Positions 17,833-56,254 of a DNA stretch of 64,000 nt are shown in pieces (positions within the stretch are counted from its first letter, which is position 1; each line of letters opens with the position of its first letter). Source of the DNA: Tanypteryx hageni (Eukaryota > Arthropoda > Insecta > Odonata > Petaluridae); NCBI GenBank assembly GCA_028673005.1, contig CM054114.1, positions 11,873,108-11,937,107 of the forward strand. Direction: 5' to 3'. Under the pieces are notes generated by a model. The model had not been told where the DNA came from and ran no database searches. It was given only the letters and a program-made list of their open reading frames with translations. A program made the position numbers and the translations under genes.

Positions 17833-17976
17833 GCGATAATATGGATTTCATCAAAGACGCCATCGTGGCCCTCCTCCAAATGTTCCGCTTGCCAGTGGAC
17901 ACCCTTCCCCTCATATATGCGGTGCTTAAAGGAACCAGGTGTGACGTCAAGGAGGCGTCCAATCAAATACAAGAGG
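17833..17976 (+). CDS. dsx: dsx exon: oligomerisation (dimerisation) domain, common part
   Basis: The exon follows a strong acceptor (TTTTGTTTTCCCTTCCAG) and enters in phase 1. The peptide contains DFIKDAIVALLQMFRLPVD, TLPLIYAVLKG and CDVKEASNQIQEG. This matches the C-terminal DSX dimerisation domain of insects, whose family pattern is LL..F..P....PL.Y..LK....D..EAS..I.EG. That domain is a UBA-like helical fold that pairs two DSX chains so that their DM domains bind DNA. The common part ends at GAGG|GTGGGT, 48 codons, phase 1 out. DSX is the terminal switch of insect somatic sex determination. The domain match is strong; the start in the Gly codon shared with 5119-5238 is inferred from phase. 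Confidence 0.9.
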
Positions 17977-17982
17977 GTGGGT
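17974..17982 (+). promoter_or_regulatory. dsx: Alternative 5' splice site at the sex-specific fork
   Basis: AGG|GTGGGT departs from CAG|GTAAGT at -2 and +4, so it is a weak to moderate donor. Only a cut after 17976 keeps the frame into 55960: GAG + G|CT gives Glu-Ala. A cut at the next GT (17981) would put the 55960 exon in a frame that stops after about 20 codons. Weakness is expected of a regulated site. No regulator binding site is identified. Confidence 0.7.
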
Positions 17983-18017
17983 ACAGAGAATTGATCGCTC
18001 CCCTAATGGGGACGTGA
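17977..18017 (+). CDS. dsx: dsx female-type C-terminal tail by read-through
   Basis: If the donor at 17977 is not used, the frame continues from Glu into GGYRELIAPLMGT and stops at TGA 18015-18017. Gly-x-Tyr directly after the I.E motif is also how the Drosophila female-specific segment begins, so this is the likely female-type end. At 13 residues it is much shorter than the fly tail of about 30. It is contiguous with the common exon rather than carried on its own exon. The female assignment is inference from homology and needs transcripts from both sexes. Confidence 0.75.
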
Positions 18018-21000
18018 ATTGTGATCAGTCATTCTCCGCGGCGATTCGAAAGAAGCCTTTAATACTGATGGCTAGTTCGTGATAAATTTGGACTCTAGGA
18101 TGTCCACAAATGATGTGATGAATTATTAAAAGTTGAGCATGACCTCAGTTGTGATAAATTAATAATTTTAAAACGATCTGATTTGTGATGGATGCATGAG
18201 TTGATGATCCGAATTGCAATCGGAGACCGAAAAATGGTTCTTAAATGGGGCTTTTTGCGGCCGCCTATATGTAAAAAACACTTCGGATGTGCTCGAGACG
18301 CTTTTCGTGCTGACGGATGAGATGGGAGAAGAAGTTTCTCGGGCAGCCATGAAGGAAAGATAAAACTGCCCGCATTGGCGCGGCATTCAATACGATTTCT
18401 GGAGTGCAACGCGAGAGGTGTGATGCGGTTTTCACTAGGAATTCCGTTTTTTGCCTGCGAATGCGATGCCGAGGCAATCTCGTCCCTCGCGGACGTGGTC
18501 ACCCGTGGGAACCAACACGGAGAGATACAGGAAACGGCCATTTTTTATTCGATCATCGTGTTTAAAAAAAAGGGGGAAAAATGCAAAGTTGCACGATAAG
18601 TGATCACCCCAACAAGGTGGCGCACATCTGATGTAGTGATTCTGAATGATTTTTTGATGGCTGCATTCATTGCATGATGTCCTTAAATTGGCGCTGTTGT
18701 GTTAAGTAATGCGCCCTCTTTCAGTGTAATGATGATGTTCGAATAAATGTGCACCATGATTTGACAAAATAACGCAAGTTTAGTGACAAAATAGTCATTG
18801 GATGTTCCGCAAACCCTTGATGTTTTAAGCGGCCTAAAATTGCTCCTATTTAAAAAAAAACGATTTTTTAAACAATGGCTGTCATGATTCGATGGAATGG
18901 GATTACGGTGCATTTTATATAAGAATTTTATACGATATGAAAGTGAAAATAAATTAATCATGAAATCAAACGAATTTTGACAATAATGTCAAGTTAAGTC
19001 ATTTACTAAATGATCATGTAATAAGGAAATAATATCAAGAGGATATTCTTCTCTATTTCAACTTGTTCCAGAATGTTAAAAAGTTTCAAAAATTACTTGG
19101 GACAGAAATGAAATCATCCGACTCACAGTGCAGTGGAATATCTTCCGAATTTTCCATTACTTACAAATATATGTGCCATTTATGTGTGACTATGGATCGC
19201 AAGTCGAGGAGGCAGATTGTGTTATGTTTCTATCATGATAAATGTGTCACTTGGAAACCTCTTAAGTTAAAAAATGGAGGTGAGGAATGTTGTGTTGTTA
19301 CCATTATTAAGTGGCGCGGTGAGATTCGGAATATGGATATCTCTGATAAATAAATTGTGGAATAAATACACGAAATCAGTGGCATCCAGAGAAACAACCG
19401 AAGGAAAGCCTTTACTTGAAAAAAGAGCATCACAGGGTGAAATCAAAATGTGCTATCTTGCTGCAAGCAATCTTTTAAATGCTTTTAAGCTCATAAACAT
19501 TTTCAAGTCCCGAGTCAGTGGTACCTAATTCACACAATGCTTTGAAGTAGGAATTCAGCTGGGAATTTTATTTCATTTCAAAAAGTAGCAGCTGCAGTTC
19601 TGAAGGATGAATAATACTAATAAATTACTAACTCGTTCAGTTTTTTAAAAATGCGACGGAGTGGATGCGTGCCACGGGGTTGATAATCCCCTGTGTACTT
19701 TAAAGTTGATGCGGAAATATAAAATGAATAACAGATTGTTTTGTGCAATGTGCTTCGATAAAAAGAATATTACTATAAAGCCCTGGTGAAGTTGTGATTA
19801 GAATGATGATATTTGGAAATACCTACTTTCAATATTTTGAATTTTAATTCCACCGCTCAATGCCTCCAAAGGTGTTCTCAAAACTAATTTTCATGTTCCA
19901 TCATTTTTCATGTGGATGTTGGTAATTCTGGTGGCATTGCTTTCTGAGTAAGGTGTCAAAAAGGTATTGCGGTGAACGAATGTTACTTCTTTATGGAAAT
20001 GTGGAAATGTGTGCTGTCTTCACGAACTTGGAATTAGACAAAAGAAAATAATGTGATTGTTTTGAATTCATAATGCTTCTAATGTGAAATTCAGATGGTG
20101 AAATTTTTAGTGTCTGTGTTATAGAAAAAATAGTAAATATTCATTCAGAGTTCAATACATGCTACCTGCTTTGAGTGAATTATATTGCTTGAATGTACAT
20201 ATCACATTAAGTGAAGATATAAAATATGCAGGATACCTTATGACGGTTCATATGTAAATTAGCAAAGTTGTTTAAGGATTACTCAGTGGTTTCTTACAGT
20301 GAGTGATATATTTTTTGAAAACTCAATGGAAATGTGGAAGTGAATATGATCAAATTTTCAGTTAAGTGCCTTTCAGATTTAAAAATTTAAAATGTAAAAT
20401 ATGGAATGGTTCTGCATTATTAAATTGTCCTCTGACCATGAATAAGAAAATAAAAGATGTGATGTGAATAAAAGTGTTTATAAAGGAATCGAAATTTTTT
20501 TGGGGTGCAGTTTTGTTATATAAATACGCAATGAATTGATGCTTGACGAAGTGTGGAGTCATGCTGGATGAAACTGCTACTTTAGTCTTGTGTTAAAAAA
20601 AATGAACAGTAGTTTGAAGTGAAAGTTTGCATCATGCAGCAATCGTTGAAACACGTGGCCTTGGGTGAAACGTTTCCCCAGTTAACGGGGCATACAGAAA
20701 TAAATATCGCTTGATTTTTTTTTAAGTGGCGGAAGAAATCATCGGTTGAACTTTGAGAATCGTGCTACGGAAATTTCTTATCATGAATAATACTGATTTG
20801 TGGCATTGCGTGTTGTGGCCGTTGTTTGTATTCACGGCTTCTTTATATTTTGCGCCAAAGCCAATATTAGTGAAAAGTTGGAAAATTGGAAATGAAGTTC
20901 AAGTTTGGACTACGAAACAAATATTAATGAGTGAAAAGTAATCGACGTTGTGTGTGTTTGCTAATCTTTAACGGAAATACGAACTTGAATCAATCGCTTC

Positions 21001-21890
21001 GACGATTTTCACGATCCATTTTGTCAGCAGTCAAAATCATTTTCATGGAAACGTTGAAGTGCCTCGATGGATTGCAAATTCGCAAATGCAAGTGCTTGAG
21101 TGGGTTGAGTCTTTCTCTTCAAAGTTTTGACGTGATAAATTGTGCCGCAGTACACTGATGCCATTCTCGTAATCGAGATTCATTGAAATAAAGACGGCAC
21201 TCGAAGAAAGTGAACGCATGTAAGCATCGCGTGGGAAATTTCGAGATCGTGCCTACGAAACGAGCGAGCATCAGTGCGTGCGGTGCATGCACCACGGTCT
21301 TCGTCGAAGGGCATAGGCAGTGCTGGAAGGGGGACGTCCGTGGCTGATTTCCAATTCCGCCCCTCTTGCGATCGGCTCGCCAAGTGGAATAATGCGTTGC
21401 CTGACGACGACACGTGTGCGAAAGCATTTATCGGATACATCTGAATTGAATGAAAAGTTGAAATTTATGCGAGTGAAATTAAGAAACAAGTGACAGTGGC
21501 ACGTTTCCCGTTAGAAAATATGGACAAAGTTAAATCGTTTAACTCACGAGGTGATCATTAATGAGAACAATGTAAACGTGCATTGATCAAATTGAATCCG
21601 TGGCCGCTATCGCCAGTTAATGGCTAGCAATTATTTTTTGCCATCACATATGAAATTCAAATTTCACAATTTTTTCCTTTTAGTATACGTTGACATTCTG
21701 AAATATGGATTTTTTGGTCGCTTCTCATTCAACGGCCAGTTTTTTGCTATAATAAAAATATGACCTGTGGTATTTATTGACCAAATCACTTGTTGATTTT
21801 GAAAGTATTCATGTGTGTTTAAATTATTTCTGTAGTGTGTTTTCTATAATGATGGTGCAATAGTCAAATCAATCCTGGGCAAAGTGCCAG
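18018..21890 (+). other. dsx: Candidate female-type dsx 3' UTR / long terminal exon
   Basis: 3.9 kb of sequence in which I see no transposon or satellite, in contrast to both flanks. It is visibly G/T-rich and C-poor on the + strand for most of its length. TGTGAT/GTGATG/TGATGA strings recur (18113, 18152, 18182, 18635, 18729, 19788, 20459), as does GGAAATGTGGAA (19996, 20329). AATAAA hexamers occur (18744, 18948, 19349, 20697, 21187) and could serve as polyadenylation signals. 21180-21440 is more GC-rich. No long frame is coding-like. It ends exactly at a consensus donor (21891), suggesting part of the UTR is spliced. Confidence 0.5.
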
Positions 21891-21896
21891 GTAAGT
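21888..21896 (+). promoter_or_regulatory. dsx: Consensus 5' splice site closing the long exon
   Basis: CAG|GTAAGTT is a full consensus donor at 21891. It falls where the repeat-free block ends and repeat-rich sequence begins shortly after (22177). If used together with the acceptor at 17832 it defines a 4058-nt exon. Its partner acceptor is not identified. Confidence 0.5.
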
Positions 21897-22176
21897 TGAT
21901 AAAATTTTTGTTTTTTATCAGTGCAATCGTTTTTCTCTTTGTAAATGTGTAGAAATTTTTAAACTCAATCAATTGAGTTCCTTTAAGTTTTCTGTTGAAA
22001 AATATGTGTATCTTCTGTGGCTGTGTTTAATTCTGTATTCATCGAGAGAAAATAATGAGGCTGACTCTCTCATTGATCGGCGTGGTGCATTCAAACGTCT
22101 GCAATGGATGGGAATCTATTTTACGGAATTGAACATTCGGAGGAGGTGATGTTGAAGGAGGAGGAGATAGTAAATC

Positions 22177-23697
22177 TTACAAGGAGAGGACACGGTAATG
22201 GCATCACGGATTTTTATGAAACTTGGTAGGTGTATAACTCTAGATTCCAGGGTCACTGCAAATCCCCCTTTTGGGTGTATACGGCCGATAGTTTTTCCGA
22301 AAATCGCGATTAAATATTGCAATTTCACGTCAACTGGTATAAATTTCTTAATGCACGCAAAATTGATAAAGTAATTGCTGGCGGTGAGCGTATAGTGGGT
22401 GCGCCCTAAACGTGAGGTCGCGAGTTCGACTCCCTATTGGTCTATTTTAAGTATTCGGAGGAAGTCTTCGCAAAAATAATTTCAGGGATCCTTTCCATGC
22501 CATAAGCATCAATATAGGTACAGGATGTAGCGTGTGCCGAGATCAATGAAGAATATGCGATTTAATAATTTAAAACTTTGTTGAAATAATCGTGCTTTGA
22601 ATTACTTGAGAAAAAAATCCGGACCACCACCTAACAACATAGAAAAAAAATCTGATGTGGCCAGCACATGACTTTCTCTATATCTATAAAATCTAAAAAT
22701 TCCAAATAGGTTACATAGTAATAAATATTTTAAGAAACTGCGAGAAAATTTTAGGCTTTACCAAGAACAGAAATAAACTCAAACCATAGCCTTCTGATAT
22801 TGGATATAGCCAAACAGCTCCAACAATTAAGAAAAGAAAAAGGATCGTTACTAAGATGTAACCAAGCGTCAATTGTTAACAATAGTCGTCGGTAGGTGGC
22901 GTGGTGGTGGCAGCTAAAAATATAAGATATCTCTTAAGCTATACATTATATGGAAAAATGTTTCAAATAAAGGTTGTAGAAAATTACATTTCCTACAACG
23001 TTTATTCTAATATATTTTTACATTTATCAAATAATAAAGCAAATATTTTAAAATAACGGATAAGTAGCAAGAGTAAACACCCACTTCCTCTCGACCGATT
23101 TTTACCAAAAACTAATCAGTTCTGACTTTTATAAAAATCTTAAATATAAAATTTTGCGTTGACCTGATTAATAGATTTTGAGTTGGAGCACCCAAAAAAG
23201 GTATCACGTACACACAGGCAACATCGAGAAAATGGTCAAAACGTGTTCAGAGGACCTCAAAACGTGTATATCCGTTGAAATCTCGAAGTCGATTTTTTTC
23301 ATGAATACAATACTTTCCCCTATACTACGTATGTGGAGAAAGTAAAAAATATAAATATGAATGTGACTGCCCAGTTAAATTTTAAAGCGAAATATGAAAA
23401 AAAGACTTGAAAAAGGAGGTGGAATGAAAAAAAAAGCTACCAATAGGGAATCAGGCTCACGACCTCACGTTTAGGGCGCACCCACTATACGCCTACCACC
23501 AACAATTACTTGACCAATTATGCGTGCATTAAGAAATTTATACCAGTTGACGTGAAATTGCAATATTTAATCGCGATTTTCGGAAAAAACTATCGGCCGT
23601 ATACATACAAAAGGGGGATTTGCAGTGATCCAGGAAACCAAACACCTACCAAGTTGCATAAAAATTCGTGATCCCACTACCGTGTCCTCTCCTTGTT
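22177..23697. mobile_element. Composite inverted-repeat element with tRNA-like arms
   Basis: Arms 22177-22440 and 23439-23697 are inverted copies of each other: outer AAGGAGAGGACACGGTA, middle CGGCCGATAGTTTTTCCGAAA-type block, inner GTGGGTGCGCCCTAAACGTG. The inner end of each arm has a tRNA-like B box (GAGTTCGACTCCC in the left arm, a degraded version in the right). Between the arms lies copy B of the TIR element. No transposase. Confidence 0.75.
22654..23349. mobile_element. TIR element family, copy B (uninterrupted)
   Basis: Left end GATGTGGCCAGCACATGACT, right end ACGTATGTGGAGAAAGTAAA; the ACTTTCTC(C) termini are inverted. The GGTTACAT site near 22710 is intact, showing the pre-insertion state of copy A. 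About 0.7 kb, non-coding. Confidence 0.75.
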
Positions 23698-24111
23698 ACC
23701 GGAAACGCGAAGCCAACCACGATGGAAGAAATGGATTATGGAAGAAAGATTACATGCGCAACCCTCATTTGCAAGAGATAAATGTATATCTAATAATAAA
23801 ATATTTTCTATGTCCACGGGTGATCTCCCGTGATTCGTCGTGGCATTAAATTCAACTCGCTGCCTCGATATTGGGTCCACAGTGGATGGCCAAATGGAGA
23901 AAACAGAAGAACCTCACCATAATAACCACAGAATTATTTAGAGCCATGAAATGAAATCATAATGGAGGCTATCTATTAGTGTTATCCGTTTGAAATATTA
24001 TTTACTTTATGGATGGAAAATAAATCCATTACAAAAAGCCGTCCAATTTGCATTTTTAATAATATAATATGATTTCTGAGTTAGTGTCGTTCGTAAACGA
24101 TTTTAGTAATG

Positions 24112-24113
<2 letters not shown>

Positions 24114-24184
<71 letters not shown>
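24114..24184. repeat. (TA)n microsatellite
   Basis: About 35 uninterrupted TA units. Likely polymorphic and able to extrude a cruciform. Confidence 0.95.
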
Positions 24185-24187
<3 letters not shown>

Positions 24188-24660
24188 TGCTTTAAATTTA
24201 TTTCACTGTCATTGGATTGTGAAATGACTTGTGTTAATAAAAGAGAATTATTTAGCCATGATAAACAATTAGTGGGAGAATCGTCCGCTCACATTGGAAT
24301 GCTTCCAAAAATTGTGCCATTATAAAATGCGCGCCACTAAAACGAATCGTAATCTCACGCGCTGAATCCTTTTATCAGAATTCATGCGAGTGAAGTTTCG
24401 AGAGAAAAATATTTACACAATTACTGATACTAATTGGAAAGGCATGATGATGAAGTGGCAAATATGCACCAGTTATTATATTAAAACTAGTAATGTCAGC
24501 TTTTAAGTTGATACTTAAAACGTAATAATTTCTTATTAAATACATCCGAGTGATTAGTAAAAGAGGCAACGTGGTCGTCTGTCGCTAGACATGTCGATCC
24601 GTTTCTAAACGTTTGCATTGGATAGTAGAAGAAGAGTATTAACTTGGGATGTAGCGTACG

Positions 24661-24819
24661 ATGGAAAGTTTCTCCCTTCTCCAATGGACATTTTCCAAAG
24701 AGAAACGTAAGGGCGGCGACTTTAAACCTCCTCCGTCCAAGAAGCGCCTTCTTCGACCGCATCCCACCAACACAATTCACCTCTGCAGCCATGGGAACGA
24801 CACCTCTGCCCCGCCGGTG
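24661..24819 (+). other. Weak candidate exon with consensus donor
   Basis: An ATG at 24661 opens 53 codons (MESFSLLQWTFSKEKRK..., then basic Pro-rich) that end at a good donor GTG|GTAAGT (24820). GC content is higher than in the surroundings. No family is recognised, the acceptor side lacks a good pyrimidine tract, and the minus strand is also open. It could be an alternative dsx exon, a non-coding RNA exon or chance. Confidence 0.2.
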
Positions 24820-27599
24820 GTAAGTAAATTATCTTTTTTTATGTCTTCCCATTTTATCTCTTTTTCGAAAATTTTAATAAAAAAATGAGGTATTAAAAAG
24901 TTAAAGCTTGCCCCATAACCGTACGGTGATTTGTTTATATGTTGAATGCTGTTACTTAAAAATATATACTGGTTTTTATCTAATGGTTTTATATCGAAGG
25001 TAGTCATAATGGTTTTCATTCGGGTTAAAAAAATCTTTATTTATATATTATCAAATCAAATTAGATAAAAAAACAGAAAGCAGGAATGAAATTTATCGAT
25101 GAAAAAGACGTTTACATAATAATAAACCTTAAGTTTGGCGTTAACTCTGTCCATTTTTATTAATCTAATAAGTTTTTTTAAAATAATTCCAAAATAAATT
25201 TATTATCCATCCCTTACTTTTGACCTTTGGGCTAAAAGCAACCACAATGTGAATCGTACTATCTCATGCCTTTAAAATAACCCGAAGGAAAGCGTTTTAG
25301 CACCGATTATGATGTATTTCCTAATATCGCAAGATATATTGGAATTGTTGGAGCTTAAGTTGTTGAGCTCAAATATATTTAGCTATTTTAGAGTATTTAT
25401 TATGAATGTATTAAAACGGAAAAAATATTTAAGATATTTATGAAACGTTTTCGGAATTTTGACTGCCTTTATGCGAGAGAGATTACGTAAGTTCCAAAAT
25501 TTTTAACAAATCAATGCCTAGTATGACTTATACAATGCCTCTTACGTTCTAGTTGTGATATTTCCAGACTTGTGTTTTTATATTTCTCTGTAGAAATTCT
25601 CCAAAATATTTAAATTTCGGAAGCATTGGATTGCATTCCATTTATTTTTGTTTCGATTGCAGACAGTGCTTAATTTGGAGATAAAAAGAAAGCGAAACGC
25701 ACAAAAGTATGATGGGGTTGGTGCATCTATTTTTTTTAATTCATATTTTAGTAGTTCACTTGTTGTAGTGTTTCTTGTAGTTTGGATATAACGGAGAATG
25801 GACATCAGAAAAGTACTAAAAAGCGTTAATTTTTACGGGTAATATTTACTATTCAAGAAATTTGATGAAAAGAGCCTTACTATATTATTTCATATAAAAA
25901 TAATCGAATCATGCTATAAAATCGCAATATAAATAGCTTACCATCTGTCTTATCGCTTCTTCATTGCACGGTGTAAAATTCAGTTTTTTTATTCCTTCTT
26001 TATATCTCCCATTTTCCATTCAAAAGCATTAGACTCGTTTCCATGACATCTGAATTTCTTATTTCCTGATTGTTTCACGTAGGGTGTTCCCGCCAGATGA
26101 CGACGCTTTTCCCAACCTTAATAGAATCATGCTACCGCCAGGGCATTTGCCATCCTTAAGAGCATCATACTCCCGCCGTATGACGAGGCATTTGCCAATC
26201 CTAACAGCAACATACTCCTGCCAGCTCGATGAAGTAAAGTTATTTCTCCAGGCGTTTACTTGTGCTTACTTAACAATTTGATCAATAAGTTTCGACTTTA
26301 AAATAAACAAATACAGAATCCAGCTGCTATTTTTATAAGCGGGGGAAATCGTTTAATAATGAAAGTTTGGTTTGTCTTTTTAGTGACTAACGCAAATGAA
26401 AGGTCTTAGCTGTTTTACTGCGTAATATTTCGAATGAGGAATAAAAACAATTGCGTTTTTTTATACTAAAGTATTTAGAGGCAAAGAGTGAGTGTTAGGC
26501 CTAGCACTCATGGCGATTTTATGTGCATTAATTTGAACGTTCAACGTTGGTACACCATTAGTTAGGCTCGAAGGAAGAAGTTAATCTGAATTAGTACCAC
26601 TCTCCTACTAACATAGATGACGTCTCTGTGAAACCTGTGAAACTCAAACTAATTAATCCACGTTATCGTAAAAATGATATTGATTCCGCAGATAATTTAA
26701 AATACAAAATTAATTTTGTGTTTCTTTTAACTTGTTACCATATTTCCGCTCTTTGCCAACGTTTCGCGAAAAATAGAAGCTTTGTACCTTATTTAGCGCA
26801 TGTTGCAGAGTGAATTGTTTATGCAACTAATATCTGTTTAAACGTACATTTAGGACGAATATAAAAAACAATGAATTCGAGTTAATATTGTTTCAATTAT
26901 ATTCAAAATAATTAATGATTGTTTTGATGCAATGAAATAATCGCTGTCGCATTTCATTCCGGCTGTAATATATTATTACATGCGTATTTATCCTGAAGGA
27001 TTTTTTACAATAGTAAATGACTTGCGAAATATTTTTTATGTTATGTTTATTGTAATCCAGTCACTAAAATATAAAATTTCATTTGCAATTGTGTTGATCT
27101 CAAATGTTGTAGCATTAGTCAGATATATGCTTTGTGTTCATGAATCATTAGCAAGTTATAAGTTAAAATTTTATTGTCTCTTGGAGGTATTCCATTGCAA
27201 TTTATCCGCGAGATTATGGCGTCGAAGATAGAATAATTTTATTATATTGTGGTTGTCCTTAACGGCGGAATATTTCTTAGCTTGTAACGGCAATGGTATC
27301 CACTCGAGAAAGGATTAATGGTCGTTTCGAATACGCGTTTCCATAATAAGGGATCGGTAAGCAACCTTGGAACCACATACGTATCTCGTCACCCTTTCAC
27401 TCACCTCTGTGCTCGTTTACGCAAATAGTTACCAATACGTAGTATATCACACGACAATATACGGAAAAACTTGAACGTAAAATGTTTGTAAGAGTGCGTA
27501 AGAAGCATATAAAACGTTATTTCTGAATATATATAAGAGAATACTAGGGGCCTATTTAAATTGTTATTATTTAATTTGCAATATTTCTTCATATAAAAT

Positions 27600-27815
27600 T
27601 TAGTGTTCGAGTTCTTGAATACCCCACATATTTCCATGTGTAAACCAAGGTTCAGGCCTAAAAATTTCAACTTTGGCTAAGGTTTGGCCTTGCGATTTAT
27701 TTGTTGTCATGGCATAAGACAGTTTGATCGCGAATTGTCTTCAAAGCATGTTAAAAAGAATTGCTGGATCATTTTGCCTGTCAATTTTTACACGTGGAAT
27801 AAAACCAGTTATGAC
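27600..27815 (-). pseudogene. Helitron helicase C-terminal relic
   Basis: Minus-strand translation gives TGFIPRVKIDRQNDPAILF, a stop, then QFAIKLSYAMTTNKSQGQTL and AKVEIF, and after a frame change FTHGNMWGIQEL. This is the end of the Pif1-like helicase of Helitrons, whose hallmark is the FA(M)T.NKSQGQT motif. The stop and frame change show it is dead. The Rep domain and Helitron ends are not seen. Confidence 0.7.
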
Positions 27816-28595
27816 TTCCAATAATTAAATAATTTATTAATCACATTTTATTAATCAATCGCTCATCATTCTCTCTCACATTTTTCAATCATAACCCACG
27901 CTACGTGCCTCTTATTTACGTTAAATAATGCTACATTCGGTTCTCGTGTTAAATCATAATGTTCTTTTTCAGATTCAATGAACTTGATTGTATTGTAACT
28001 TTAATTGGAATAAAATCGAAATTAAATATAAATACCGATAATCAAATGAAACTTATACGTATACAGCATATATATTAATTTCATTTAACGTTATAACGTA
28101 AGACTTTCATTTAAATACTAACTAAAATTATTTTAGCGTGTTGTATACATAGAAGCTTTCTTTACTTTTCGATATATTAAAGAAATTCTGAATATACATT
28201 TATAAGCTGAACACGACTTCTATTAGTTATAAAGTGTTCCGCCAGGTTGCAGCACTCCACTCTTACTTACTTTTGTAAACTAACTGCGCTTGGCAAAAGT
28301 CACCTCACCTTGTATAATATAATATAGATTAGCTCCTTTGTCTTCTAAAGGATTCGCTTCATTGAACTCGCTATAAAAATAATTAATATCATACATTTTT
28401 GAGCTTTAGATGCACATTTTGCTGCCATATTGACTGAGTGATATGCTTTTTTACGTGCATCTTGTTCTTTTCCCCCAACTTGAACTTTTTATCCATAGTC
28501 TCCAAATGTTTTTATGTAGCACGAATATTTAGATATTCAAATACTATTTACTTTTCCGGTAATATGTAGAAGTGTTTTATATACATATGTCGAGA

Positions 28596-32388: not shown

Positions 32389-32491
<103 letters not shown>

Positions 32492-33680: not shown

Positions 33681-34440
33681 TATAGGATAGCTTTTGTTGC
33701 GAAGATTGGAAGTCCCGGGTTCCACTTCAGAAAATCTCTTTCCCATTTGATTTACATGGGAAATCTGAAAGCCATCGTGCAGGGTAATTTTCTGTTGAAC
33801 ATTAAAATATCTTAGAATAATAATATCGGAGTGGGAATTGTACTATTATCTGAGGAAATGAATGAAGAATCTTATTTTTATCGTAGAATTTAGTTTATAG
33901 ATCATATTTCTTAGAATTTCGCATAAATACTGGTGCTTTTTTGCAGTTTCTATCACTCATTACGAGAGTGCTGCCATAGCAATAACTATTGTTGAACTCG
34001 AATTCGGTATAGTCTAGTACATACACGCGTTATTTTTGTCATAAATACGCGTGATCAATTTAGTTTTCCGTTCGAATGTATTTTTAATATTTTAAAACAA
34101 TAAATTATGAAGTTGTGGAAACTACAAAGTTATCCTTTCATTATTACTAAATTATCCTTTCATTATTACTAAATTATAAAATTTAGGAAAACAAAGAACA
34201 ACATTTCCGCGGTGATTTTAAAGCTATTAGAGCCAATATAAGTATTAAACAATAGATTAAATGGAAAGTAAACATCACAAGTTCCGTTTGGATCATCTTG
34301 TTTTATACTTCCTCTCTATTTGCTGCACTTCTCTGTTCCTTTCTCCATCCTCGCGCCTATCTCTTCCCCGCATCTTTTACTCCCCCTTTGCATCCATCTC
34401 TTCCTATAGTTCTCAGTCTCTTTCACTCTCTCCTTTCTCC

Positions 34441-34990
34441 CCCCTCTCTATCTCCCTCCCTCTCTATCTCCCTCCCTCTCTATCTCCCTCCCTCTCTATC
34501 TCCCTCCCTCTCTATCTCCCTCCCTCTCTATCTCCCTCCCTCTCTATCTCCCTCCCTCTCTATCTCCCTCCCTCTCTATCTCCCTCCCTCTCTATCTCCC
34601 TCCCTCTCTATCTCCCTCCCTCTCTATCTCCCTCCCTCTCTATCTCCATCCCTCTCTATCTCCCTCCCTCTCTATCTCCCTCCCTCTCTATCTCCCTCCC
34701 TCTCTATCTCCCTCCCTCTCTATCTCCCTCCCTCTCTATCTCCCTCCCTCTCTATCTCCATCCCTCTCTATCTCCATCCCTCTCTATCTCCCTCCCTCTC
34801 TATCTCCCTCCCTCTCTATCTCCCTCCCTCTCTATCTCCCTCCCTCTCTATCTCCCTCCCTCTCTATCTCCCTCCCTCTCTATCTCCCTCCCTCTCTATC
34901 TCCATCCCTCTCTATCTCCATCCCTCTCTATCTCCCTCCCTCTCTAGCTCCCTCCCTCTCTATCTCCCCCCCTCTCTATTTCCCTCCCCC
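34441..34990 (+). repeat. 16-bp minisatellite CTCTCTATCTCCCTCC, about 33 units
   Basis: Highly homogeneous 16-bp units; a variant with CTCCATCC occurs at 34641, 34753, 34769, 34897 and 34913, in a repeated single/double pattern that suggests block duplication. Pure pyrimidine except for the TA/CA steps. The long Ser/Leu/Pro frames here are not genes. Confidence 0.97.
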
Positions 34991-44916: not shown

Positions 44917-45235
44917 CAGTGGGCGCCAAAGCGTTTTCACTGGCGGGCCGCATCGGCGGTTGCAAATCCTTTGGAAGTTACCAATTTTTTGGCGAACCAG
45001 ATTGGAGATTAAATCGGAAGTTATCTATATGTTCTAAGGAGCTATATAAGTGAAAATCAAGTCTAAATAAGGTATTTTATGGTTAACATTTCAGTATTAA
45101 AAGTTTTATTATCAAAATTTACATAAAATGTATGTATTTGTTAATTTTTTCGGATGGGTTTTTCATCATACCATTGCGGGCCGCACAAAAATCCTTCGCG
45201 GGCCGCATCCGGCCCGGGCACTTTGGGCACCACTG
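44917..45235. mobile_element. hAT-type MITE, GGCCGCAT family, copy 3
   Basis: Ends CAGTGGGCGCCAAAGCG and TTTGGGCACCACTG are inverted. The interior GGGCCGCATCGGCGGTTGC and CCTTCGCGGGCCGCATCC blocks match 1296-1567 in order. Target duplication not seen. Confidence 0.65.
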
Positions 45236-47303
45236 CTGTGTGCCGCTGCTATAACGTTTCTTACTTACTCCCTGCTGGACACATTACGGAGTGTAACTCC
45301 TAAGTATTTTTAATTTCTGACATTTTAAGTTTGACTTAGACATATCGTCATGGCTACAGAAGCTTAAACCATTATATACGAAATAAATAGAAAAAGCATT
45401 TTTCTTATAGAGAAAGATGAAATTGTCTTGATGATAAATTACCTACTGATATGTCTTTCACATAGAGGGCTTCCTTTACCAGGTTAATAGGAAGTGGTTT
45501 TCCTGGTTTCGGAGTAATAATAAAGCATGCTTCCACATGCATCCGTTAAGAGCAGACCACTTGGGAATTTTTTCATCACGTATCGCCCGTTGCGGTTGTG
45601 GATAGCTGAAATAAATCTTTTTCAATAGTGATTCATGGATTGCGTCTTTCGCGGGTGATAATAGCGGATGCATTGATCGTAGCAGGTTTCTTTTTGACGT
45701 TACGATTGAAAACTAGAGAATTATGGCAAGTTAAGAGCCAGTAATTGCCCTCACTATGTGCAAGAAAACAGAAACAGTTGGTCTTTTAGCAAGCGATAGT
45801 GAAAGTGAGTCGGCGCTTTATTGTCGTCGAAATGTTCCATAAGCCATAATCACCTTCGTGGATAAGGTGAAACTAAGAAAAAACGTTACCATTCTTTAAA
45901 TTCTGCAATTATTGAACAAATGCACCATTTAAATGCCTTAACTATGTGCTGTATCTCTGTCGCGTGTATGAATCAGCTCTCACTGAATTAGTGGGTTTTC
46001 AACGAGAAAATATAGTTTATTAATTTGCTTTGGAATTTCACGGCAGCTAAAAAATAAATGAGACGAAACCTATATAAGGAAACAGTTAATCTATTCCAAT
46101 TAACAGTTTTTATTACTTGTTAATGGGTCTAGATTTTCTTTGCATTTTAAAATTATTTATAATCGAGGTACGAACGCGGAACTTAAACATATGTGTGTCA
46201 AAAAGAAAACGAATTTTATTTTTTTCCCACTCAAGAAAACATGAATCAGTTCAGAATCATACTCTACACAGACATCCTTCGAGAATACGCTTATTCGCTA
46301 TTACGTCATGACAAAATTAAAGAGAGAAAATTTGAGATACGTGGTCTTCCCTCGTTAATACCACAATTTAAATTTATCATTGCGTGATTTGTTGTTTCTC
46401 TGGACGGTATTATGCTCTCAGCAACAAATGTCAATCGTGATTTTTCCGTGGCGTTTAAACCCCTAAGCGTGTATTTTTCTGGCTACGTCGATATCCGAGC
46501 AAACTTAGCAGGTCGTCGCGATCCAGTGCACGAGAGCTAGAAGCCATTTTGAGCTGATAGTTATAAGGGTCAGACCTGAGGAAGAAAAAAATAGTTAAGA
46601 TGTAAACACAGACAACAAAGAACCACAGAACGTAGACAGGAGAAAGGAATTCATAAGCAAACTGCAAGATAGCTAATAAATCAGAGCCCGAAATATTAGA
46701 GCTCATTGTGATAATGTATACGCAAACGGCGCGCACGCTGGTAGGGCTATAGACTGCTCAAATAACTCAATGTTTCTGCACAGCCTTTTTCTCTTGTAGT
46801 GTTCGCATCCACGGGTTTTTCATCACATTATCTGTGATCGCTGTTTTCGTGTGTTACGTAAATAATGACCCTCATGTCGGAAAAGAAGATTGAAGTTGAA
46901 CTACTTTGATTGCATACAACTATGTATTCACTGCATTTAATTTTGGAAACCTTGATTTAATGTAGGTCAGGGCTCGCCTAAGATTTTCATGCTGGCGCCT
47001 GGATATTGTATATGCTTGCGGTTATGGTTATACTGTAGTCATAATGAATTATCTGGCTCAGCAGCAGAAGCAGCAAAATACATTATATCTATCGGAAGTG
47101 TTCCTGAAAATAAATGCAAATTTTTATTCCTGTTCGTAAACTACATGTTTTCAGAATATCATTAGACTTTTTCAGATGCATAAGACTCATTTTATTATGT
47201 TCTGCTACATAATGTGACAAATAAATGTGTATGGCTTAATTATTGTAGCTGATTCGTGTCTGAATTATTAAAAATTTATTTTTCTGACGATAATAAAAAA
47301 ATT

Positions 47304-47985
47304 CTGATGTGGCCACATGACTTTATCAATACCTGTAATATTTCTAAAAATTCCAAATAGATTACTTAATACAAAATATTTCAAGAAACTGCGAGAAAAT
47401 TTTAGACCTTACAAAGAACAGAAATAAACTCGAGCCTTCTGATATTGGATATAGCCACAAAGCTCCAACAATTAAGAAAATAAAAGATGTAACTAAGCGT
47501 CAATTGTTAACAATAGTCGTCGGTAGGTGGCGTGGTGGTGGCAGCAAAATACTTTAGTTTTTAAGATATCTCTCATTATATGGAAAAATGTTTCGAATAA
47601 AGGTTATACAAAATTAAATTATCTACAACTTTTATTCCACTATGTTTTTAAATATATCAAATATTAAAGCAAATATCTCAAAATGACGGATAAATGACAA
47701 GAGTAAACACCCACTTCCGTTTTACCGATTTTTACCAAAAACTAATCGGTTCTTTTGACATTTTATAAAAATGTTAAATATAAATTTTTGCATTGACCCG
47801 ATTAATAGTTTTTTTAGTTAGAGCACCCACAAAAAAGCTGGCACACACACACACACAGACATCATCGAGAAAATGGTCAAAATGTGTTCAGGGGACCTCA
47901 AAACGTTTATTTCCGTTGAAATCTCGAAATCGATTTTTTCATGAAAACAATACTTTCCCCTCGACTACGTATGGAGAAAGTAAAT
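47304..47985. mobile_element. TIR element family, copy C
   Basis: Left GATGTGGCCACATGACTTT, right CTACGTATGGAGAAAGTAAA. The body has the CGTCAATTGTTAACAATAG and GTGGTGGTGGCAGC blocks of copies A and B. It appears to sit inside an older hAT-like repeat, since GCTGGCGCCTGGATAT (46990) and GCTGGCTCCTAGATTT (48012) flank it. Confidence 0.75.
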
Positions 47986-48364
47986 ATTTATCAAAATGAT
48001 CTAACGTCTGCGCTGGCTCCTAGATTTTGGAGGATATTATTATTATATTATTAAATTTAAGGTCTTAGAAGTTTAACGAGATTAAATGTCAATAGCATTA
48101 TTAATTATAAAAAATGTGACATCACGGTATTCATCTCAGTCTGCATATTAATTATTGCTGTTTAAAATATAATTTTTCGGGTACATTAAAAGTTTCTGGT
48201 TGCCGCACTTGAGAATCACTGTTCTAGAATCATAGAAGCAGTCACTGCTACTGGTACAAGAGCGATGATGCCACCTGTAACAATGTTGACGTCAGATTGT
48301 GTTTTATCGTTCCATTCCAAAAGAAGGCAATTTTCAGTAAGGCCAGCCATTGCATTAATTACAG

Positions 48365-49477
48365 ACAGTGTTGCCACCTCTCCCGAAATTTCGGGAGTCT
48401 CCTGAAATTAACCCACCTTAGATACATATCTCTCGGAATCTGGTAGAACTTGTCCGGGAGCCCAAAATCTTCGTAATTAAGTAATTTTCAGCTATACTAG
48501 TCATTTTACCTTATATTAAGTTGAGATTTTGTAGAATAATATCCTTCGATTTCAATGGAGCGATACTTAATGTAAAAATATACTCTTTATACAGGATCAT
48601 CTTGGTTAATACCTTGGACGCGCCACTAAAGGGTCGCCGGATTTTTATTACAATTTAAAACAATCAAGAAACATTCAAAATTGTTTTCGATTTCTTTTCA
48701 AAAGTAAATGGAGTTGGCGGAGACACAAAGAAAATTGTAACTAGGTGCTTTCAGTTCCAGTATCCAACGCAGCATGCGAACGTGTGTTGAATGTTATTAA
48801 TGAATTGTTGGGTAAAGATCGAAACAAATTACGTGTGAATCATTTTAAAGCAGAAATTCAAGTATGCACCAATTTTAATTACTCTTGTAAAGATTTCCAT
48901 GCCTTTTAACTATAAAAACCAGATCTTTTAGAGACTGCTCGAAATAGTTCAAAATACAAATTCAAATTAAATAAATACGTTTGGCTTTTGAAGTAATGCT
49001 ATTTATAAGAGGTGAATATAATTTATACAACAATTTAAAAAAATAAGGTAAAATGTTCATATTTTTTCTAAATAATAAATAAAACAAGTTTTAGTGTTCT
49101 CATTAGCTTTTTTTTAATTTTAACGTACAAACAATCTCGCAGTTAACTACTCATATGTTGGATATCTCCCGGAATCAGCAATTACAAGGTGGCAACGCTA
49201 ACTTTAACAGTAAAATAAAGATGAAACAATCATGTTTCTTAATAAGTAAGTAAAACAAGTTTCATTGCTCACTTTAGTTGATTTTCGACCTAGAGAAAAT
49301 TCTCCCGGAATTTTTACGCGCAATGGGTATCTAAGAGGTAGTGCAATGAATAGCTGATCAGTTTAAAAATTTAGGATGAAAGATATTACCAACATCTTCC
49401 TAGGGTTTTTTACCCGGAATTAGCTACTCATGAGGTGGAAATCTCCCGGAATCAACTACCCAGAAGGTGGCAACCCT
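48365..49477 (+). mobile_element. Internally deleted hAT transposon, perfect 8-bp TSD
   Basis: Ends ACAGTGTTGCCACCT and AGGTGGCAACCCT are inverted; direct flanks AATTACAG (48357-48364 and 49478-49485) match 8 of 8. CTCCCGGAAT/GGTGGCAAC subterminal motifs are repeated several times in the right part (49160-49477). It keeps the end of a transposase gene (48754-48909). At 1.1 kb it has lost most of the coding region. Confidence 0.85.
48754..48909 (+). pseudogene. hAT transposase C-terminal dimerisation segment
   Basis: Frame beginning at GTT 48754 reads VPVSNAACERVLNVINELLG, then KDRNKLRVNHFKAEIQV, to TAA at 48907-48909. SNAACERVFS-like plus RN.L is the hallmark of the hAT dimerisation domain near the transposase C-terminus. 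No ATG precedes it and the catalytic core is missing, so it is a relic lacking activity. Confidence 0.8.
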
Positions 49478-49924
49478 AATTACAGATTAATCTCAGGATC
49501 TGACAAATTGGGTTCTTCATAACGCAGCCAAAATTTCCCACGTACAACCGTTTGTAACATTGTCAAGAGTACGTGGTTTAAGTAATTTGAAAGTAATAAA
49601 ACATGATGAACAACTAACAATCAGGAATATATTCATAAAGAACTTTTTGCAACAACATTTAAATTTACCGTACTTTTCTGTTTGCAAGTAAATTCTCTAG
49701 TTTTGATGTTGATTGTCAATGTGCACACATATCAATAACAAAATCTCTTCTTAAGGTTCTTCGAAATTTCCAGAATTGTAATTGCGAGTTCTCTACTAGC
49801 TAACTTAAAAATTCATTTTAAATCATAAAACAACAGAAATGTTTATATCTTTAGTACTGAGATAAGTTGTTTTGAAGATTAATTCTCGAATTATTGCCAT
49901 GCTTTGATGCAAAATTTCGGTACA

Positions 49925-50177
49925 TATGTGGGTAGGTCAAAAAGAAGGGATTTTTTTAATTTCTCGCTCGGTTGGGTGGTAACACAGCTCGCACTCATAC
50001 CGCTGGTTTGGTGTAGTGTAGTTGACGACAGTTATTGTGTTGTAACACTACGTAAGCGGGTTATTATTGTGCCGTAGTTAACCGTTAAAGATGGAAGCTC
50101 GATTGTCGATTTGCACAAAAGAAGAAATGCGGGGAGTAATTCTATTCTTGTTTGTAGAAGGTGTTAAACCTGTGTGA
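49925..50177 (+). mobile_element. 5' end of a mariner element
   Basis: A TAGGTCAAAAAGAAGGG-type terminus and a short leader are followed by ATG at 50091 and MEARLSICTKEEMRGVILF...EGVKPV, then TGA at 50175. MEARxSxxTKEExR is the typical mariner transposase N-terminus. Only 28 codons remain; the paired HTH and DDD catalytic domain are absent, so the copy is a deleted relic. Confidence 0.7.
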
Positions 50178-50811
50178 ATTTCCATTTTTATTATACCAAA
50201 ATCTTAGCAGAAGGTAACTACCTACCTTCGGGCAAAATCATTTGCAAAGAAAATTAGAATATAAAATTTTCAAAGTATTTCATTGAAATATAAGACAACC
50301 ACTGTGACAGTGCAATTCAAATTGATATTTACAATTCAAATCATGGCTATGCAGTCAATAATAGTTTTATAAGACGATGAACGAACCACCAAAAAGAGCT
50401 AAACTTATAAAACTTGAGACACTATAACCCACACTTTCCGAATGTGAGACGATGCGGTCTTCTATTATGGCCGATGTAACTTCTGAGAGATGGATGATAT
50501 AGATCGCTGATCGTAGAAAAAAATTTAGAATGAGCAAATAATTGCCACGATCAACGACTATTTGATAGTTGTGCAATTTGCAGAACGAATTATACGAAAT
50601 CAAGTAAATACAACGAATAAGAGCCCTTAACCATATGGTGTGGCGTATAGAATATCTAGCGGGCGTCTCGATTCTAAATTGCAGCAATGTGTTGTAACTT
50701 TTTTGTTTTTCAGCTTTCACCCATTGTCACGCCCTTTTCATGTTACCCCTACCTATGAAAACGTTTACAGGCCAGAAAAAGTTGATAGCGGGGATCGCAA
50801 TTCAATTACTG

Positions 50812-51840
50812 CTAAATTATTATCAAGGTGTTTAAGTGCTGATAATTATCTGCTAAGTAGGCTAGTTTCAGCAGCCATTTTGTATCTTCAAGAAAGTCAG
50901 AAAAACTGGCTTTATTATTACCTTTGAAGAAAAGCGGTAGTTCCTCTCGCAGCTCAAATACCCTTGTTAAAACTTTCCCTCTTGAAAGCCATCTAACCTC
51001 AGTGTGTAGGAGAGTCACATGGTCTTTTTGCATTTTTTCACACAGCTTTGCAAACATGCGTGACTTAAGAGGGCGCTGCTATATAAAATTGACCATGTTC
51101 ACAGCTATATCAAGGACTTTTTTAAATCCTCCCCAATAGTTTTTGAAACAACTTCCCGGTGGAGTAAGCAGTGGGCCGTTATGACATCAACGTTTTTTTA
51201 TTTGTCGTGTGTAACAAAGCCTTTTATTCAGCCGATCATTGAGGGGCCACCATCAGTGCAAATTCCAACACACCGGCTCCATGACAAACCGCAGGATTCC
51301 AAATAAGAAGACAAGATGTTTTCCATTTTCCATTATTTCACCTTCGTTTTCAAATCTTACGAATGCCAACAGCTGAGCTTTACTTGTTATGTCTGTTGAC
51401 TCGTCGACTTGGAGAGCAAAGTTAGTATTTTTTAGTATTTCAAACAAGACATCTTCAATGTCGTGTGACATGTCATCCACACGCCTACTAATAGTATTAT
51501 TAGAAACAGGAACTTTGTCAATTTCACTTTAAGCCTCTTTGCCTTTTCACTGTTATTTTACAAGCAGGCATTATTAGGCTTTCAGCAATAGTGTGACTTT
51601 TCATTTTTTGTACAACTAGCTCAGTTACTAAATAGCTTTCTTCTTGGGCCTTTTCACTTCACTTTTTACCTTCTTCTCAAAAACTTTACATCGTCCTTGT
51701 GAATCCAAAAGTCGTTGAAAGTAATCAACTGTTTTATTTGACAAGTGGCCGTGATTAGTAATGAAGTGTCGATTTAACTTGTTCGGGGTCATAGCTGTGT
51801 TAGTTTTTCCCCGCAAACAATGCACAATGGAACGGGGAAA
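50812..51840 (-). pseudogene. Decayed hAT (ZBED5/SCAND3-like) transposase
   Basis: Minus-strand pieces lie in transposase order but in different frames. First 51825-51628 with CLRGKTNTAMTPNKLNRHF, a BED-like finger region. Then 51480-51253 with DDMSHDIEDVLFEIL and FALQVDESTDITSKAQLL, containing the DESTD catalytic-region motif. Then 51057-50812 with LLHTEVRWLSRGKVLTRVFE. This is the Buster/ZBED5-type hAT family. Frameshifts and stops separate the pieces. Confidence 0.85.
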
Positions 51841-52548
51841 TTTTCGTCTTCAGTCCATGTAAAACCCATGGCCAAGTAACTGTCATTGTAAAGGCGATTT
51901 TTTTAAATATCAGTCACATCTCTTCCTGCTTTACTCGTACTTGGCTCTGATAATTTTTATTCATTTTCACTGTCCTCTCCTTTACTGACGCGCCTTCTTT
52001 TCATATACTTCCACATTTTTCAATCTTCAACAGCCGTATGAAAATACTGTTACGGGGTGGGATTTTAGATACAAAAATAACCACGGTTTCGGTAAAAACG
52101 CCAATTACAAAGCTACGCAAAGACTACAAATCTACAAAATAGCGAACGACCGTAACGCGCAATAAACACCACTCGCAAAATCACCCCCGAAAATAAATAA
52201 CTCGGAGTATCACTATCGCTCAGATCCGTGGAACCGCAGTCTACTCAAGACTGACTCGGTTGCCCGATCGTCACTCTTTAAATAAAGAAAAAGAACCTTC
52301 TCGAACAATCTGGTATCAGACACAATACAACTAAATATAACCTTAAATAAGAACTGAACAAAACAAAGAGGCAGTCGGTAGCGCACGGAGATTACTCCAG
52401 TATTGCCAATTTCCGGGCAAAAATTTCCGCGATATTTCGAGGGATATTTGGAATTTTTCGCGTTATTTCTACATTTTTATTTATTTATTCTTCGATTCCT
52501 CGCGGAATCCCTGACGGTGGTTTGCGGAACCCTGGTTGGGAAACACTG

Positions 52549-52805
52549 GGTTAAGTGTTGGCCCCGCCAACTAAAGCGACACCCGGTTCGAATCCTGTAG
52601 GATTTTTTCCCCCTATTTGTGCGTGTTGGAACTAAGTAGATGTGGACGAGCCAATGAGAAAAAGTGAAATGAGGAACGCGCTCAAATCAACACTCCGTCC
52701 TTCGGAAGGGACGTTAGCCGTTGGTCCCCTTGGTGCTCTTCGTTAGGAGCACGCTAAAAGCCGGCACCAGGTTTCTCTCCTCCTTTCCTATCCGGCTATT
52801 CATTG
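52549..52805 (+). repeat. tRNA-derived SINE
   Basis: Head TTAAGTGTTGGCC...GGTTCGAATCC has a perfect B box at 52585-52595. The tail has TTCGGAAGGGACG and CCCCTTGGTGCTCTTCG, matching 5340-5420. It directly follows an orphan hAT right end (GGTTGGGAAACACTG, 52534-52548). Confidence 0.6.
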
Positions 52806-54886
52806 CACTACCTCTTAGATTGCGCGTAGGCAAGAGGTGAATCAGCTGGAAACGTACGATACTCGATATAACAATCAAGCTGTGCGTAACGTAACGAAAT
52901 GTTTTTTAAATAACGTGACGATAAACGTTAACGATATTTTCAAAGTAACTAACGAAAACGAGAAAAATGTTATTTCGTTATGTTTACGCTTTTACTGTAT
53001 GACATTTTGTCCCTTGTTCCCCACCCTATTTCTTTTCTCTCTTCCTCGGCGGTCTTATTAGCCCCCACGTACAGTCATACCGTCCTAAAATGCACCAAGG
53101 ACGGGATGATGGGTCTTTTTCGTCTCGTCTCAAACTACCTTTTAATATGAAAATAGCCTACATTTTATATTGTGCGCCTATATTTTCAAAAAGTTTTTCA
53201 TGTTGATACTCTGGCCCTCGAGCATGAAATTTATTGACCAACCGGCCCTTTTATAAAAAAGTTTGGAGACCTCTGGCCTAGGAAATGGTTTGCGAAGCCC
53301 ACAACTCGAGAATTTTGAAAACATGTGGTTGAATTTTGTGGAGGAAAACACTATCAAATTCTTAAGAATTTATTTTCATATATATTTACAATGTATTGGG
53401 CGTGCGTCTGAGTTCGATGTAAGGAATCCAAAAAATGTCACTTTCGTCGATTTAGGTTGAAGATAAAATTCTGTATGTTTCTGTTACAATTTATTATTAA
53501 CTTTCTCCCGGTTATGATGGGGAAGCTTTTCTTTCTAGTTTTACATACTATAAAATGTTCTCTCGAACTGAATTTTCTGAGTAAATGTTTGTTTGTTTTA
53601 GTAGTAGTTTAGTAGAAGTACTTATGTATTTCTTATTTGTTTTTCTGCCAGTAATTATGTTCTGTAATAGAACATTTTAGTCGTTAAAGGTAAAAAGTCG
53701 TTAAGGCAAGAATGAATAAACATGACCCACATGGCTGGTGAGCGTTCCAGGTAGTTGTATTTCGAATCTTTAGACAATATTCATTTTATGGAGGGAGTAT
53801 TTCCTCATCCTTCGCAAAAAAATAATGTAAGATGAGAAATAGTTGGCGGGTAATTAATTCAAAGCCTTCCGCAATAAAAATAAGTGGCACTTGGAAAACA
53901 TACTGCGGGCATCGTCCATTTTCTCGAAACGACCTCTTTCGCTTTACCGCGCAAATGAAAAGGATTTAAAATAAAGCTCATTATCGTATTTCAAGCCGGG
54001 TCGGTTATTAAAGCTGCCTTTGGAAGCCAAATAAAGTATTTTTGCATTTAAACGTAAAATTATGTTATTCTGGCGATAAAATAATGAACGGGAGAGTAAA
54101 TGTCTTCATCACGAATGGTCCATTGTTCACGGTCAGCTCGTAAAAGAGTTCTGGTTTGAGCTGTCGTAAATCAACACGCGTTTCCTATTATTTATTTTGT
54201 GAATTATTTCATTTTGTGAAATGATTAATACCAGTTACAGTCGCTGTAATGGATAGCAGCCATTGCAAAACGCAGATGCGACGAGCAGCTACGTTTGCAA
54301 TTCTGCATTTCTCTCATTCGTGCCCACCTTCAACCAAGGTAGTATATTTTTAGTTACGGGTATGTAAAGTTCGGGCGCATTAATTTGTTGGTACTGAGTT
54401 ACTATCAGTTCATTAGAAGAAAAATTATCAAAACCTCCAAATCGCTGATTTATTTATTCCTTCGACGAAGTTTTTCGCGACACCATACCGCGGCAACCAA
54501 TTGGAGAAAAACACTTCACCACGCTATCCTGCATCACAGACTTTTAATATTGCAATCGATTGTCTTATCACCTGATGCAAAAGTTTTTTCTTTCGAATTA
54601 TTTGATCTGTGGAATGATGTAAATTTAAAATTTTTCGAAATTATTGAATGTTTTTGCCTTCGCAAACTTGGGCTATTGCTATTGTATTCTGTAACGGGTT
54701 ACTGACGTAATTGAGTTTTCCGCACTTTACTTTGATGGTTATTGAATGATAAGCAAGGTCAAATCCCTGGAGCATTCTCCGTCAACATTAAAAAAGGTAC
54801 GTCTTGATTAGTGTAATTGATAGTAGCTCAATAACTTTGGCTAAGATTAATAAAGGTAAAATACTCCTTTAGCCAAACAATTAGAG

Positions 54887-54942
54887 GGTTACAACACCCA
54901 ATGCATTTCGCCCACAAGGTGGGCATCGTCAGGGGTAAAACC
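54887..54942 (-). ncRNA. Hammerhead-ribozyme-like motif (left arm)
   Basis: Reading the minus strand: stem I strand GGTTTTACCC (54942-54933), core CTGACGA (54932-54926), bulged T, stem II GCCCAC-CTT-GTGGGC, GAAA, palindromic mini-stem III ATGCAT, then T and stem I partner GGGTGTTGTAACC. ACCC/GGGT and GGTT/AACC pair around an internal loop. The predicted cut follows AUU (between 54900 and 54899). The extra U before stem II departs from the canonical core. Confidence 0.5.
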
Positions 54943-55390
54943 TGTTTCAACAGTGACTGAAAGCCAACTGCCAGGTTTGAAACGGAAAGTGTTAAGAAGA
55001 CGACCGAGAAACAAGTGAAACGCGGAAAAATTTTTCGGCGTGTGTTTCGTTTAAATCTGTCAATTTGTATAGGGTCTTGTTGAAATCGTTTTGAAAAATT
55101 AAGCGTTGCCAACCACGTTTTTGAAACAGGTCATAGTATACACGTAAACGATTTACCATTGATAACTTCAGCCAATAACTCACTAAACTCGTTAGAAAAC
55201 CTTCACATTTACAAAAACCGCGATACACTTATGAACACGGACACAGATTTCAACAAGACCCTATACAAATTGACAGATTTAAACGAAACACACGCCGAAA
55301 AAATTTTCCGCGTTTCACTTGTTTCTCGGTCGTCTTCTTAACACTTTCCGTTTCAAACCTGGCAGTTGGCTTTCAGTCACTGTTGAAACA

Positions 55391-55446
55391 GGTTTTACCC
55401 CTGACGATGCCCACCTTGTGGGCGAAATGCATTCGGTGTTGTAACC
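55391..55446 (+). ncRNA. Hammerhead-ribozyme-like motif (right arm)
   Basis: Stem I strand 55391-55400, core CTGACGA 55401-55407, stem II 55409-55423 (6 bp, 3-nt loop), GAAA 55424-55427, palindromic ATGCAT 55427-55432, predicted cleavage after 55433. The stem I partner starts CGG instead of GGG as in the left arm, giving one mismatch next to the cleavage site. Confidence 0.45.
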
Positions 55447-55959
55447 CTCTAATTGTTTGGCTAAAGGAGTATTTTACCTTTATTGATTAGTGTAGCCGAA
55501 ATGAGCATCTGGTTTTTCACAACGTTGTTATGGCTGTTGGAGATACCCAAGATAAGTACTTGTTTTTTCATTTTTTATACTTATCTGCTTATTCTTCAAT
55601 TTCTAATCGACAGGTTTTTGAATCCTCGGTGAGCGTCATGATAAGTGTAATTTCCACTTAGTTTGTTAATTTTCTCTCCAAATGCGTTCTGGTTGTGTTT
55701 CTTTTATACATTTTCAGGATTTCTCGTCTTCACCACCAGTTTTGCAGACTTGACTGTTTCACTCCAATGCCTGATAGTACAAGGAACTTCATTTTTCTGT
55801 TTGTTATTATATTTAACTTAATCTTCCGATTGAAATGCCTTAACAGCTAATATTTATTTTCATCATCCATCTTTACATAACCTTTATTATTATTATTAGG
55901 TTGTTCCTTTCTGTCAGTTGTCCGCTTAACCTCCCCGTTTTTCCGCTCCCGAATCGCAG

Positions 55960-56254
55960 CTCAGGACGACCTCCGCTCCATGGCCCTCAGAATGATGTAT
56001 CCCAGCCACTACTACTATGACGTCATATCCAGCGCACCCACTTACATCCCCACGCCATCGGTCGACCTCCCTAGCCACGGCGGCTACCCTCCGCATTCAA
56101 TGGTCCACCCTGCCCCCTCGTCGACGATGCCTGTGCCGCCGCCCCACACGCTGGCACACCTGCCCCACATGTTCACGCACCCGCCGCCCCTCGGCGTATC
56201 GCTCGCCCCAGGATCTCCGAAGGGAAACGCAACGACAGGAATCGGATCCTAGTG
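55960..56254 (+). CDS. dsx: dsx male-type C-terminal exon
   Basis: Acceptor GCTCCCGAATCGCAG (AG 55958-55959). With the G carried from 17976, the frame reads A-QDDLRSMALRMMYPSHYYYD, then SSAPTYIPTPSVDLPSHGGY, then a Pro/His-rich stretch, ending GNATTGIGS and TAG 56250-56252; 98 residues in all. Drosophila male DSX likewise continues Glu-Ala after the dimerisation domain, followed by a Tyr cluster, an AP.Y.TYPS-like segment and a long low-complexity Pro-rich tail. The exon is GC-rich with third-position C/G bias, unlike its flanks. The second AG (55963-55964) would shift the frame. Sex assignment is inferred from homology. Confidence 0.85.

Follow-up and report, generated by a model that had tools for sequence, protein, structure and literature searches.

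The 3' half of doublesex in the odonate Tanypteryx hageni: a phase-1 junction kept in relatives and a distant, probably male, tail exon

Odonates diverged close to the root of the winged insects, and here we examine a stretch of the Tanypteryx hageni genome that holds part of the doublesex gene (dsx). The window, i.e., the whole stretch of DNA analyzed, comprises 64,000 nucleotides of contig CM054114.1 (assembly GCA_028673005.1). An initial annotation had placed in it a DSX dimerisation domain and both sex-specific ends of the gene, about 38 kb apart: a Glu-Gly end read straight on from the domain, taken to be female, and a Glu-Ala end reached by splicing. We found that this odonate dsx, of which the stretch covers the 3' half, is ordinary in build and that the window contains three dsx coding exons, the cassette, OD2 and tail exons (Table 1).

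Table 1. Coordinates of the dsx features in the window (position 1 is its first nucleotide).
Feature	Position	Strand	Basis and remarks
dsx cassette exon, 120 nt, coding, phase 1 at both ends	5119..5238	+	tblastn with P0016
OD2 (dimerisation-domain) exon of dsx, last shared coding exon ahead of the presumed fork	17833..17976	+	PF08828, PDB 1zv1, match to P0016, structure model
Read-through past the OD2 donor: rest of a Gly codon, 12 codons, stop	17977..18017	+	Female end of the initial annotation; unsupported
Tail exon, probably the male end	55960..56254	+	tblastn, odonate junctions; stop at 56250-56252, donor GTGAGT from 56255

The dimerisation domain proposed at 17833 was borne out by sequence comparisons. 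The peptide translated from 17835 matched the Pfam profile PF08828 above its cut-off, with E-values of 8.4e-9 when read through and 3.8e-8 when spliced, the latter being the DMRT/DSX profile search that the initial annotation had put forward as a check, and the OD2 peptide matched the sequence of Drosophila DSX in the PDB (1zv1) at E 9.9e-7. When P0016, an odonate Dsx of 471 aa, was used in tblastn, 47 of the 48 residues of the OD2 exon were identical (97.9%), and within the 1.68-Gb assembly PF08828 was found in one of the seven candidates scored. A structure model of OD2 based on an 11-row alignment had a mean pLDDT of 81.6, and of 59 at the read-through end. The Foldseek search with this model gave 23 matches headed by three DSX structures, 1zv1, 2jz0, and 2jz1, with probabilities of 0.99-1.00 despite E-values of 0.036-0.42, none below 0.001. 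The model from the single sequence gave one Foldseek match only (E 9.6), and this was not DSX. Moreover, four DM-domain loci were detected in the assembly, and one of them is located upstream of the window, on the same contig and strand. By tblastn, the odonate Dsx proteins match this DM exon over their first 282-287 residues; the exon ends in phase 1 at AACG/GTGAGT (contig position 11736735), about 136 kb before the window begins at 11873108, and the coding part of dsx spans about 193 kb. P0016 joins the DM domain and OD2 within one protein. The DM exon also contains, in TPPKCARCRNHRLK, the features described for the type-A OD1 of dsx, a Thr-Pro-Pro-Asn-like start and a Lys at position 14 (PMC4538375), with the position counted by eye from the Thr. 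The gene prospero has been reported at 17-245 kb from dsx (PMC8346542); a query with a fly prospero domain gave no match at E <= 0.01 in the window, the 200 kb upstream, and the 20 kb downstream. The Rfam search gave no matches.

Two odonate relatives, P0016 and P0017, were obtained in a homologue search with an X-padded peptide, as two of 19 candidates at E <= 10. The unpadded 144-aa peptide gave none of seven candidates at E <= 1, full-length Dsx being probably outside the length range. The whole 471-aa P0016 is encoded on a 3961-base contig, suggesting that it comes from a spliced transcript, while P0017 is the doublesex-like isoform X2 of Hetaerina americana and may be a predicted model. 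In the window, the OD2 exon ends at 17976 with GAG-G followed by GT, in phase 1, and the exon at 55960 is preceded by AG, the G and the CT forming an Ala codon across the junction; the exon ends given in the initial annotation were thus correct to the base. Both relatives go directly from OD2 to the 55960 tail, P0016 as NQIQE/AQDDLR (longer, NQIQE/AQDDLRAMALRMMYPGHYYY) and P0017 as NQIQN/AQDHLR (longer, NQIQN/AQDHLRAMALRMIYPGNSYY), which is the phase-1 splice from 17976 to 55960 that had been predicted. The junction had also been called conserved and residue-exact, and of this the place and the phase were retained and the residue was not, Asn standing in Hetaerina where Glu stands here. As judged from these alignments, a phase-1 join of OD2 to a distant tail exon is kept in odonates. 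The 5119-5238 cassette, which the initial annotation did not include, matched P0016 residues before OD2 at E 2.4e-18; AG precedes it and GT follows it, and it can be skipped in frame. It is present in P0016 and absent from P0017, which reads ANG/DNMNF, the product expected from cassette skipping. Collectively, these comparisons established the domain, four coding exons, and the exact junction in two relatives.

Next, the tail exon was compared with odonate and fly proteins. It matched P0016 at E 7.3e-25 and P0017 at E 5.6e-17 in tblastn, and with a simple matrix its donor ranked in the top 0.41% of the 3397 GTs in the window, the acceptor and donor of the OD2 exon being in the top 0.23% of 3055 AGs and the top 1.5% of the 3397 GTs, respectively. 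With the same matrix, the 55960 acceptor was poor: its score was reached by 30% of the 3055 AGs and surpassed by an in-frame AG at 55900 (5.0 vs. -1.3). A start of the tail exon at 55900 was ruled out, since both odonate proteins start at 55960. The Glu-Gly and Glu-Ala forms that had been stated for Drosophila at this place were found in the fly proteins P0001 and in P0013 (labelled male) and P0012, respectively. Against a Drosophila male tail, the tail aligned over 46 residues without gaps, and 6 of 3000 shuffles were as good for its first 50 residues; the likeness to this fly tail was weaker for the full tail (73 of 3000). For the retrieved Glu-Ala proteins of flies, shuffles as good numbered 18 of 2000 (P0012) and 7 of 2000 (P0013), and for the Glu-Ala form of Hermetia, P0015, 107 of 2000. 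This weak likeness to fly male tails suggests that the 55960 exon is probably the male end. In I. elegans, male up-regulation of dsx has been reported solely in the comparison with androchrome females (PMC5131402).

An inverted repeat (54846-55087 and 55246-55487) ends some 470 nt ahead of the 55960 acceptor; its arms, each 242 nt long and separated by 158 nt, are 99% complementary. When transcribed, it would form one long hairpin, with -477 kcal/mol vs. -158 for 20 shuffles, and it may be a mobile element because parts of it recur in the upstream region.

We are confident, short of certainty, that the stretch is the 3' half of an odonate dsx in which the isoform joining 17976 to 55960 is most likely male and a separate female end presumably exists. 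The common part is made of the DM-domain exon, the optional 120-nt cassette, and the OD2 exon, and phase 1 holds for all the junctions, including that to the tail. The isoform that is most likely male joins OD2 to the exon 38 kb away at 55960 and ends in a Tyr/Pro/His-rich tail; a second, presumably female, end would be separate from this tail exon. Both the male assignment and the existence of a separate female end are what we infer here, and the second end could be an exon that went unrecognised or else a long read-through exon. The alternatives weighed below overlap with this explanation, and their probabilities need not sum to one with it.

The claim that both sex-specific ends are found here held for the distant end and its junction, and the Glu-Gly female end was left unsupported. 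The Gly after the OD2 exon is forced, because the exon-final G and the GT make GGT in phase 1, and the open tail past the donor, of 13 residues, has a length expected by chance: of the 3398 GTs of the window, each taken as a phase-1 donor, 49% gave open tails of at least 13 codons, and the median was 12. In addition, the read-through was unlike the fly female tails, as 967-1569 of 2000 shuffles did as well in comparisons with five of the 11 such tails in hand. The female label is therefore without support from the sequence, and it is contrary to the following known cases of read-through. The dsxM2 transcript, in which the intron after the last common exon is kept, is male-specific in four Drosophila species and Blattella, this intron being 114 bp long in D. 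melanogaster and 902 bp long in Blattella (PMC9307624), and the intron-retained dsx form of the sawfly Athalia is male (PMC5524875). As a general caution, a Gly obtained by reading on from a phase-1 exon with a final G is no evidence of a female isoform. These cases speak for another reading, possible though on the unlikely side, in which the read-through would be a dsxM2-like male or unsexed intron retention, and the true female exon, too diverged, would be located in the 38-kb intron or beyond. However, they come from insects other than odonates, and the tail, HMM, and acceptor searches gave no candidate for a female exon. A Drosophila female tail had its best tblastn match in the window at E 0.83, on the minus strand. 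Neither the nine matches to regular expressions on the plus strand nor the 11 candidates from an acceptor scan of 17990-55959 (score of at least 5, 15 open codons) were female-tail-like by eye, and among the 17 matches listed for an HMM of 10 fly female tails in the six frames of 264 kb (E 0.19 to 11), none was on the plus strand after 17976. The TRA/TRA2 repeat elements (TCWWCAATCAACA) gave 84 sites with up to three mismatches vs. 92.6 expected, and their core, CAATCAAC, was not found on the plus strand between the OD2 and tail exons; the elements and the core are those of flies and may not hold in odonates. The literature search on dragonfly dsx gave nothing on point.

We give a lower chance to the reading in which females leave OD2 unspliced at 17976, so that 17976 to about 21890 would be exonic and untranslated past the stop, and the protein would end Glu-Gly-Gly-Tyr-Arg-Glu-Leu-Ile-Ala-Pro-Leu-Met-Gly-Thr. 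It is in line with the longer, female-associated dsx transcript described for Ischnura senegalensis (PMC12033981), with the Tyr at the third place, which has a 4% chance, and with a skewed composition at 18-22 kb that hints at a long read-through exon. Across 264 kb, the 4-kb segment with the highest G-over-C value (0.183, vs. a mean of 0.01 and an sd of 0.053) begins at 18.2 kb, and the GT at 21891 (CAG/GTAAGT) has the best donor score of the 3397 in the window. However, a second 4-kb segment, at -36.9 kb, had a near equal value (0.175), the maxima at the 1-kb and 2-kb scales sit elsewhere than 18-22 kb, and the excess on the coding strand, strong over 17977-22100 after the OD2 exon, runs past 21890 to about 22.4 kb. 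Moreover, a stop 3.9 kb ahead of a splice donor would be unusual, and the forced Gly, the chance-length tail, the lack of likeness to the fly female tails tested, and the male-specific read-through of Drosophila and Blattella also argue against it. No further copy of the 18-22 kb stretch occurs within 284 kb. It is improbable, in our estimate, that the second dsx end of odonates lacks a dedicated female exon altogether, with OD2 running through the stop into an unspliced stretch of about 4 kb (17833 to about 21890), a retained-intron state that would be a possible source of the female exon of other insects. An equally improbable reading, that the sex difference of odonate dsx resides elsewhere, e.g., in the 5119-5238 cassette, with the 55960 tail in both sexes, would agree with the two odonate proteins, which share this tail and of which one has the cassette and the other does not, and with Ischnura transcripts described just as short and long (PMC12033981), but the insect isoforms reported differ after OD2 (PMC4538375, PMC6721801) and the tail is weakly like fly male tails.

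Several repeats were observed in the window. An inverted-repeat element occupies 22150-23720, and the 284 kb around it contain many copies of its inner part (about 77-85% identical), among them 47295-47999 and 14625-15267. About 200 bp before the OD2 exon, an interspersed repeat (17401-17636) has upstream copies with 73-85% identity, and at 34436-34988 a 16-nt pyrimidine unit is repeated in tandem (34.6 copies, 97% matches). Two transposon-like open frames are on the minus strand: the one at 51253-51528 had a weak match to DUF4371 (E 0.017, below the cut-off), and the one at 14090-14626, by eye the end of a retroelement reverse transcriptase, had no Pfam match.

The position of the fork is already published for hexapods, as the dsx isoforms of Archaeognatha and Collembola diverge right after the final Glu of OD2, like those of Holometabola (PMC4538375). 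Sex-specific dsx splicing has been described in Thermobia, and a short female-specific dsx region in non-holometabolous insects (PMC9290531); isoforms are also reported for a cockroach and a woodroach, OD2 being lost in the termites tested (PMC6721801, PMC8346542). With its coding exons mapped, this odonate dsx of about 193 kb offers a guide to where the origin of the female end might be sought. Like Tanypteryx, Drosophila and other flies have the DM domain, OD2, and a fork directly after OD2, a fork that is probable in Tanypteryx, the flies with Glu-Gly and Glu-Ala forms; in contrast, the fly female tail (GQYVVNEYSRQHNLN...) was not recognised in the Tanypteryx window, and the fly male tails are just weakly alike. 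Blattella germanica is likewise hemimetabolous, has OD2, and produces alternative dsx 3' ends (PMC6721801, PMC9307624), but its first female exon, placed after the 902-bp intron past the last common exon, had no recognised counterpart in Tanypteryx. Among odonates, P0016 and P0017 match Tanypteryx dsx in exon content and in the OD2-to-tail junction, although Hetaerina P0017 differs in the Asn for Glu before the junction and, as isoform X2, in the missing cassette exon. In damselflies, dsx plays a part in the male-like colour morphs of females (PMC12033981), and Ischnura senegalensis has an odonate dsx with sex-associated isoforms (PMC12033981, PMC9290531).
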